Shown in pieces: positions 38,872 through 41,399 of a stretch of 59,859 nt of DNA. The notes under the pieces were generated by a model. That model ran no database searches, was not told the DNA's origin, and was given only the letters and a program-made list of their open reading frames with translations. Within the stretch, counting starts at the first letter, position 1; each line of letters opens with the position of its first letter. This stretch comes from Lachnospiraceae bacterium (GTDB taxonomy: Bacteria; Bacillota; Clostridia; Lachnospirales; Lachnospiraceae). Both the position numbers and the translations under genes were made by a program. Where the stretch lies: positions 1-59,859 of the forward strand of contig JAFVCL010000026.1 of the NCBI GenBank assembly GCA_017479285.1, given 5' to 3'.

Positions 38872-39915
38872 TTGAAAGAAGAAAAACAAAGAAATATTGC
38901 CTTTGACATATTAAGGATCCTTTCTGCCGTGAGTATTATCATAATGCATATTACTGACGGCAATATTTATTCTTCGCCGGTAAAGGGATCTGTCTTTTGG
39001 CAATCTGCGCTTTTAAACTCCATATCGCATTTCGGAGTTCCGGTTTTTGTCATGATAAGCGGAGCGTTGTTTCTGGCACCCGGATATAAGTTAAACTTAA
39101 AAAGACTGTGGCTCCACAATATCTTAAGACTTTGCATTGTTTATATCGTATGGAGTTTTGCGTACGGAATTTATGATTATTCATCCTACGGGGGAGGGTT
39201 TAAGCAGCTTATCTGGTGCGCCGTTATCGGGAGACCACATCTTTGGTTTCTGCCTATGATAATCGGAATCTATATTATCCTTCCGTTTATGGTTACATGG
39301 GTCAGGAATGCATCTGTTAAAGAAATCAGGTTATTTATCCTGTTATTCTTTATATTTAATATTGTATGTGAGACTATAAAGGCATTTAAAGCAGCCGAGA
39401 TAATTACTTTTATTCTTGATCTTAGAAATATACAGCTTGTATGCAGCTATGTGGGGTATTTTATTATCGGCTATTACATTGTTCATATCGGGCTTGAAAA
39501 GAAATTCAGAAAGCTATTGTACTGCGCAGGTATGATATCCGGGATATTAAGCGCGATATCCGTGATCCTGTTATCAAATATTGCCGGAACGCCTAATATG
39601 TATATCGTTGACAGCTACAGCATATTTACTTTTTTCTGGTCCGCGGCGATATTTACTTTTGTATTTGAAAAAGCGGGTAATAAAACCTACGGAAAGCATA
39701 CGGAGCTTTTTTGGGGGAATATCGGAAAGGATACCCTTGGATTATATCTTTGTCACCTGGGAATAATAGAGATAATATATCCCATAAGGGATTTTTGTGG
39801 GTCTCTGCCCGTTATTCCCGGATTTCTTTTATATACTTTGATAATTGCGGTAATTGGATTGGGTCTTGGCGCGGGTCTAAGGCGGATACCTTTTATCGGG
39901 AGATATATTTGTTAA
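38872..39915 (+). CDS. Acyltransferase family 3 membrane protein
   Basis: 347 residues with about ten hydrophobic segments. The N-terminal signature FDILRILSAVSIIIMHIT, with the conserved His, places it in the acyltransferase-3 (OafA/WecH-like) family, which O-acylates surface sugars or other exported molecules. The substrate cannot be told. TTG start at 38872, 13 bases after rimM, with a weak GCGGGG site. It interrupts the otherwise conserved rimM-trmD pair and is visibly A/T-richer than its neighbours, suggesting insertion or transfer. Its end lies 38 bases before trmD. Confidence 0.85.
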   Translation: MKEEKQRNIAFDILRILSAVSIIIMHITDGNIYSSPVKGSVFWQSALLNSISHFGVPVFVMISGALFLAPGYKLNLKRLWLHNILRLCIVYIVWSFAYGIYDYSSYGGGFKQLIWCAVIGRPHLWFLPMIIGIYIILPFMVTWVRNASVKEIRLFILLFFIFNIVCETIKAFKAAEIITFILDLRNIQLVCSYVGYFIIGYYIVHIGLEKKFRKLLYCAGMISGILSAISVILLSNIAGTPNMYIVDSYSIFTFFWSAAIFTFVFEKAGNKTYGKHTELFWGNIGKDTLGLYLCHLGIIEIIYPIRDFCGSLPVIPGFLLYTLIIAVIGLGLGAGLRRIPFIGRYIC

Positions 39916-39953: not shown

Positions 39954-41399
39954 ATGAACTTTACAGTACTTACTCTGTTTCCGGAGTTTATTGAACAGGG
40001 ACTGAATACGAGCATACTGGGAAGAGCCATTGAAAAGGGCCTTTTAACAGCCGATGTCATAAATATAAGGAATTTTTCGGCGGATAAAAACGGAAGAGTG
40101 GACGATTATACTTACGGCGGCGGAGCAGGGATGCTTATGCAGCCCCAGCCGGTTTTTGACGCGTATAAAGAAGCCCGCAGCCGTATCTTAAGTAAAAGAT
40201 TTCCGGAGGGGAATCCCGCAGGCGATGAAAGCGCCACATCCGGAAGCCATAATAACAATAAAATAAGATGCATATATGTAACACCCCAGGGGGAGCCCTT
40301 TACACAGAAGAAGGCTTTGGAGCTTTCCGGGGAGGATGACCTTATCGTACTCTGCGGTCATTACGAGGGTATCGATGAGAGAGTGCTTGAGGAGGTTGTA
40401 ACGGACCGGATATCCATTGGTGATTATGTTTTAACCGGCGGTGAGCTTCCTGCCCTTGTAATCATAGATGCGGTGGCGAGGCTTGTGCCTGGGGTACTGG
40501 GGAATGAAACCTCTGCGGATATCGAGTCCTTTTACGGGGATCTTCTTGAATATCCGCAGTACACAAGACCGGAGGTGTGGAACGGAAAGAGGGTTCCGGA
40601 GGAGGTGCTTACCGGGGATCCGAAGAAAACCAACGCCTGGAGACTTGAAAAACAGATAGAGCTCACAAAAAAGGTCAGACCTGATCTTTTTGAAAAGTAT
40701 CTTTTAAGGCAGAGCACCCTTGAGAAGCTTTTAAAGGACAAAAGAAATAATATTCAGATGATAGAGGCGCTGAGGCGCGGAACGGGGGATATTATTTGCA
40801 CCGATCCCCTTGTTATTTACCTTGAGTGTGACAAGCTGGCGCTTGTAGGTCTTGGGGATTCCATATCGGTAGGTGAATTGCTCGGCATAATTCCCGGATC
40901 CGCAAGAAGCATTGTCTGCTCAGCAGGTCTTGCGGAGGTTCTCTGCAGGGATGAGCGGATAGAAAAATCCTGTGATGTGCATAATTATGTTTATACTGAG
41001 AAGGTACACAGAAGGGTTGTAAACAAGGATATCCGCAGGCTGGGTATGGAGTATGCCGGCTACATCGGCGAAAAATACGCCCTGGGAGGCCCGGAGTACG
41101 GCAGAGAAAGACTTGGCGCCGGAGTTGTCTACGGTATATTTGTTGAGGGCGAGATAGCGGGCTTTATCGGAACCCACGGTGAGGGCAGCATAGGGATGCT
41201 CTATGTGGACGAAAAATACAGACACCGGGGGCTTGCAGCCGACCTTGAGAGCTTTATGTTTAACAGGGACCTTGAGGCAGGCAGAACCCCTTACGGCCAG
41301 ATCATCCTTGGAAACGAGGCATCGACGGCTTTGCAGGAAAAAATCGGTGTTTACGGCGGGGATAAGGTTCTTAGCTGGCTAAATATAAAAAATGCTTGA
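39954..41399 (+). CDS. trmD: TrmD tRNA (guanine37-N1)-methyltransferase fused to a GNAT acetyltransferase domain
   Basis: 481 residues against about 245 for ordinary TrmD. Start at ATG 39954 gives the canonical MNFTVLTLFPEF. The SPOUT methyltransferase (1 to about 255) includes YGGGAGMLMQ, CGHYEGIDERV (about 133-143) and SIGDYVLTGGELP, which form the trefoil-knot SAM site; it should methylate G37 of tRNAs. A roughly 20-residue Asn/Ser/Gly-rich insertion sits near residue 90. From about 290 to 481 a GNAT-like domain follows, with the strand GSIGMLYVDE and the acetyl-CoA loop RHRGLA (423-428). The reading frame is continuous, so this is a genuine fusion in this sequence. The acetylated substrate is unknown. 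Confidence 0.92.
   Translation: MNFTVLTLFPEFIEQGLNTSILGRAIEKGLLTADVINIRNFSADKNGRVDDYTYGGGAGMLMQPQPVFDAYKEARSRILSKRFPEGNPAGDESATSGSHNNNKIRCIYVTPQGEPFTQKKALELSGEDDLIVLCGHYEGIDERVLEEVVTDRISIGDYVLTGGELPALVIIDAVARLVPGVLGNETSADIESFYGDLLEYPQYTRPEVWNGKRVPEEVLTGDPKKTNAWRLEKQIELTKKVRPDLFEKYLLRQSTLEKLLKDKRNNIQMIEALRRGTGDIICTDPLVIYLECDKLALVGLGDSISVGELLGIIPGSARSIVCSAGLAEVLCRDERIEKSCDVHNYVYTEKVHRRVVNKDIRRLGMEYAGYIGEKYALGGPEYGRERLGAGVVYGIFVEGEIAGFIGTHGEGSIGMLYVDEKYRHRGLAADLESFMFNRDLEAGRTPYGQIILGNEASTALQEKIGVYGGDKVLSWLNIKNA

Follow-up and report, generated by a model that had tools for sequence, protein, structure and literature searches.

An in-frame fusion of the tRNA methyltransferase TrmD to a GNAT domain in Lachnospiraceae, with probable repeated loss of the acetyl-CoA core

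Results

We analyzed a stretch of DNA from a Lachnospiraceae bacterium (GCA_017479285.1, contig JAFVCL010000026.1, positions 1 to 59,859, forward strand; hereafter the window) in which a gene on the + strand, at 39954..41399, encodes TrmD continued by a GNAT domain. The reading frame opens with an ATG at 39954 and its stop codon ends at 41399, giving 481 amino acids (aa) without an internal stop. An earlier note, made from the sequence alone, had proposed a fusion of this kind, and it is borne out by the open frame and by Pfam and NCBIfam models that score over their cut-offs. No stop or frame error, for which the note had allowed, lies between the two domains, and the same in-frame join was present in 25 genomes that were read.

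The TrmD part (residues 1-250, the edge being approximate; 39954..40703, + strand) matches PF01746 over residues 23-243 with 192.2 bits (cut-off 27.3, E 1e-56), the NCBIfam equivalog NF000648 over residues 1-246 with 288 bits (cut-off 220) and TIGR00088 with 279 bits (cut-off 195). By these models it is a tRNA (guanosine(37)-N1)-methyltransferase, and m1G37 methylation is its predicted activity; the gene is single copy, with one PF01746 match in the genome. An Asn/Ser/Gly-rich loop at about residues 79-103 (40188..40262, + strand) corresponds to an insertion near residue 90 that had been called unusual. The insertion is present, but it is a length-variable loop that is long in further relatives too; the TrmD part measures 249 aa in the studied gene vs 224-243 aa in other congeners (37 of 44 rows compared). 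At the putative catalytic position (about residues 185-209 of the window's TrmD), where E. coli TrmD has a catalytic Asp, Glu stands in 90 of 92 rows. Because this Glu occurs in tailed and tail-less proteins alike, we rejected altered catalysis linked to the tail. A literature search on D169 and the general base, with partial coverage, returned nothing useful.

The likeness of the tail to free-standing GNATs of two other genomes (G052 and G045) spans query residues 250 or 251 to 476, so that the module begins at about residue 251 and not at about 290, where it had first been placed. Its N-terminal half (residues ~251-348; 40704..40997, + strand) is delimited by the AlphaFold2 model, by a glycine N-acyltransferase match and by being the half that is kept in shorter tails (see below). 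The C-terminal, catalytic-type half (residues ~349-481; 40998..41396, + strand) was recognized by the fold search and by sequence models, the tail scoring 27.5 bits against FR47 (cut-off 22.1) and 27.2 bits against Acetyltransf_10 (cut-off 23.6). Structural matches of the AlphaFold2 tail model were mostly GNAT chains, and the glycine N-acyltransferase match covers model residues 1-231; this fold search had been named beforehand as a test that could refute the GNAT assignment, and it found GNATs. RHRGLA lies at protein residues 423-428, exactly where it had been reported, and fits R/Q-x-x-G-x-G/A, the acetyl-CoA loop motif of GNATs. A profile search with the tail matched GNATs weakly (best E 0.0019), a single-sequence PDB search gave proteasome matches at chance level only, and no GLYAT-named Pfam model, of the sort that the library presumably contains, was among the tail's matches at E up to 1. 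The fused tail, which shares the reading frame of TrmD, is a GNAT with the fold of glycine N-acyltransferase; from sequence models, predicted fold and loop motif together, the long tail is a member of the GNAT superfamily for which acyl-CoA-dependent transfer is predicted.

The fusion is not confined to the window. A search of 59 relatives, with frames read, showed it in nine genomes of the source genus (the source included), and each of the 28 TrmDs detected in that genus has a tail of some kind. A family survey of about one genome per genus (299 genomes, tail-profile threshold 1e-10) gave matches in 18 genomes, in 10 of which the tail is fused to TrmD; two of the eight others (G476 and G525) were read, and the remaining six were judged by frame length and contig position. 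Over the genus, family and order surveys the long fused tail was read in 25 distinct genomes and is common to relatives in several genera, while counts of other TrmD tails in the family-wide TrmD table are lower bounds. A contig scan yielded four loci. Of these, L032 and L033 proved to be copies of L003 and L007 and were left out, L034 is the same as L037 of G107, one copy being kept, and L035 was new. On a tree of TrmD domains with 90 rows, which leaves out L089 and L106, tail vs no tail amounts to three changes. These fit one gain and two losses, on a tree whose root is not known and many of whose branches are weak. We also considered whether the tail replaces TrmD's own last helix, but this is not secure: the helix motif, counted with a loose regular expression that mis-cut at least two rows, was present in 23 of 37 rows without a tail, compared with 8 of the 25 with a long tail and 3 of the 21 with a short one.

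Of the 46 fused tails that were read, 21 are without the acetyl-CoA core, namely those of 19 of the 28 TrmD-bearing congeners and of two genomes from two other genera (G268 and G468). Alignments place the segment without a counterpart in these short tails at tail residues ~113-176 (41040..41231, + strand; edges good to within about 10 residues at best), whereas the N-terminal half is kept, together with the final helix-strand-helix-strand, and the short tail is predicted to fold confidently. At E up to 1 GNAT models matched none of the 17 short tails scanned with Pfam out of 21; the whole protein of G268 was scanned apart, and G003, G468 and G019, whose tail is truncated by a contig end, were outside the scan. 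Homology of the tails of G268 and G468 to the long tail was seen with hhalign (E 3.3e-11 and 3.7e-12, respectively). By sequence comparison the short tails are derived from a GNAT but are devoid of its defining acetyl-CoA-binding core. Long vs short tail requires three changes on the TrmD tree (one inside the genus and one each in G468 and G268), and well supported branches force at least two; the core was probably lost by separate events.

Conservation within the long tails, measured on 11 of the 25, is highest in tail residues 156-178 (41169..41237, + strand), the strand and loop assigned to acetyl-CoA, where mean pairwise identity is 0.63 vs 0.37 for the N-terminal half. Since this stretch is the best conserved, the core is probably in use where it has been kept, and activity in the source species is plausible. 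The earlier note had suggested that the GNAT acetylates a tRNA or a translation factor, or that acetyl-CoA gates TrmD. An active partner of this type, which would acetylate the tRNA that TrmD acts on, a charged tRNA or a protein of translation, or else gate TrmD, would suit the intact GNAT half with its conserved loop and the fact that many species have it joined in frame to an enzyme of tRNA; such coupling is possible in long-tailed species. It cannot account for the retention of the tail in general, because the core is missing in the 19 congeners and in G268 and G468 while the rest stays, probably through separate losses. Nor did a profile search find a full-length relative of the long tail elsewhere in the congeners' genomes (assemblies 68-99% complete); outside the nine fusions, the tail profile gave in the genus seven short weak matches, with E from 2.9e-5 to 7e-4. 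As an account of the tail in general, we regard the active partner as improbable.

Short tails look constrained, although less strictly than TrmD. Of 23 short-tail pairs in five close groups, 20 yielded a dN/dS value, ranging from 0.02 to 0.31, and dS was saturated in three. L015/L017, the pair furthest from saturation (dS 0.29 in the tail), had a dN/dS of 0.091 in the tail and 0.058 in TrmD. Among long-tail pairs, five of six gave 0.03 to 0.19 and the sixth was saturated.

TrmD of the same family is also joined to other domains. Two genomes, G317 (L139) and G411 (L137), have a ferredoxin-type tail that ends in 4Fe-4S motifs, and their close relatives G377 and G562 (L142 and L143) have a shorter remnant without a Pfam match at E up to 0.01 that by eye resembles the longer ferredoxin-type tail, in parallel to the short GNAT tails. 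TrmD is joined in frame to an HD domain in G338 (L140) and to a putative cyclase in G512 (L138), and in G052, from another family, to a different GNAT type, Acetyltransf_3 (L066:3970-5232). At first sight G052 suggested a separate capture of a GNAT, but it stands alone there, since the nine other f19 genomes with a TrmD match (10 searched) have frames of 224-267 aa. The GNAT family of the window's tail occurs free-standing elsewhere, in unlike gene settings, and in G476 (L134:839-2113) it is joined to an N-terminal domain that looks like NUDIX, the motif having been recognized by eye. Together, these fusions, the ferredoxin-type remnants and the varied settings of the GNAT would be expected if the tail were a passenger, i.e., a neighboring GNAT gene joined to trmD by chance, which acts, or once acted, as an enzyme in its own right and decays piecewise where it is unneeded. 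This is a serious alternative, albeit one we consider rather unlikely, given that core-less tails still have low dN/dS in most measured pairs and a confident predicted fold, and that a tail is kept in every TrmD found in the genus. No free-standing GNAT adjoining trmD, as a source of the fusion, was seen in 19 regions read; in G052 the two are about 10 kb apart.

The fused trmD lies between rimM and rplS, and the fusion was in the usual operon wherever neighbors were readable. Between rimM and trmD intervenes a putative membrane acyltransferase-like gene at 38872-39915 (+ strand). By tblastn this gene stands in the same place in five of nine long-tailed congener loci (L002-L006) and was not found in the other loci examined (1e-6); in G052, too, an acyltransferase-like gene lies between rimM and trmD. 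In one relative (L005, G006:C49) the trmD frame runs into rplS, probably by an assembly frame error near the end of the GNAT tail. That case, and the fact that the window's genome is a 102-contig assembly with completeness 87.5, might raise the suspicion that two genes were joined by an assembly or frame artefact, which is extremely unlikely with the join recurring as it does and with, as judged by eye, no conserved internal start at the junction that has a Shine-Dalgarno-like sequence. The same observation led us to discard the possibility that the GNAT is translated separately from such a start; several but not all of the long tails have an ATG at the same position.

Discussion

The architecture described here holds at the level of a clade, with probable repeated loss of the core. 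The tail appears as a kept scaffold with an optional catalytic core, and because the scaffold is kept while the core is optional, we see the shared function as a structural or docking one. Selection common to all tails would then act on a scaffold role on TrmD (stability, or docking of tRNA or a partner) and not on acetyl transfer, which would be a second, lineage-specific function. In the window's species the intact, conserved site would still bind acetyl-CoA, and the tail probably acylates some amine in that second capacity. We give this scaffold interpretation about an even chance.

Several observations weigh against it. TrmD of this family accepts unrelated C-terminal domains, and the tail can be dispensed with, since tail-less TrmDs (L101, L103 and L144) branch among tailed ones in the 90-row tree. 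In most pairs dS exceeds 1 and is near saturation; tails usually diverge faster than their TrmD (76% vs 95% identity in L025/L029), and dN/dS of the tail reaches 0.31 in L031/L152. The lowest-scoring short tail exceeds the best shuffle by a narrow margin (8.4 vs 7.7 bits).

A further and quite improbable idea is that the tail is a TrmD-specific module, by which m1G37 formation is tuned or complemented through acetyl-CoA binding or acetylation, and that core-less lineages have fixed one state but retained the module. If true, an essential tRNA methyltransferase would have a domesticated, core-less GNAT as its accessory domain. The enzyme, which is essential and a target of antibacterial drugs, is commonly regarded as having a single, invariant architecture. 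The present clade, where TrmD acquired a fused enzyme domain whose core was then lost, probably more than once, constitutes a natural experiment that sets apart what such a domain contributes by its structure and by its catalysis, and it allows long-tailed, short-tailed and tail-less TrmDs to be compared directly.

Standard TrmD ends after about 225-255 aa, whereas here a GNAT of 231 residues follows; the whole TrmD part, the rimM and rplS neighbors and the single copy in the genome are as in the standard enzyme. A GNAT domain within a tRNA-modifying enzyme is also found in TmcA, a tRNA cytidine acetyltransferase, whose partner domains are unrelated to those of the TrmD fusion. In its predicted two-half fold the tail resembles GLYAT (PDB 7pk0 and 7pk1) and the related chain 1sqh, but it shares only 12-14% identity with them, and unlike GLYAT the short tails have no acetyl-CoA core. 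Literature searches of partial coverage found nothing on GLYAT-like bacterial proteins and GNAT pseudoenzymes, and no TrmD-GNAT fusion was described in the titles or abstract beginnings retrieved. Extensions of SPOUT proteins in general are treated in PMC9508554, and a fusion of TrmD to a second SPOUT domain, the double-SPOUT TrmD-Tm1570, in PMC11187310 and PMC1829167; the words "acetyltransferase" and "GNAT" are absent from the main text of all three. TrmD-Tm1570 is like the fusion reported here in adding a C-terminal enzyme domain to TrmD, and unlike it in that the second domain is there a SPOUT methyltransferase and here a GNAT.
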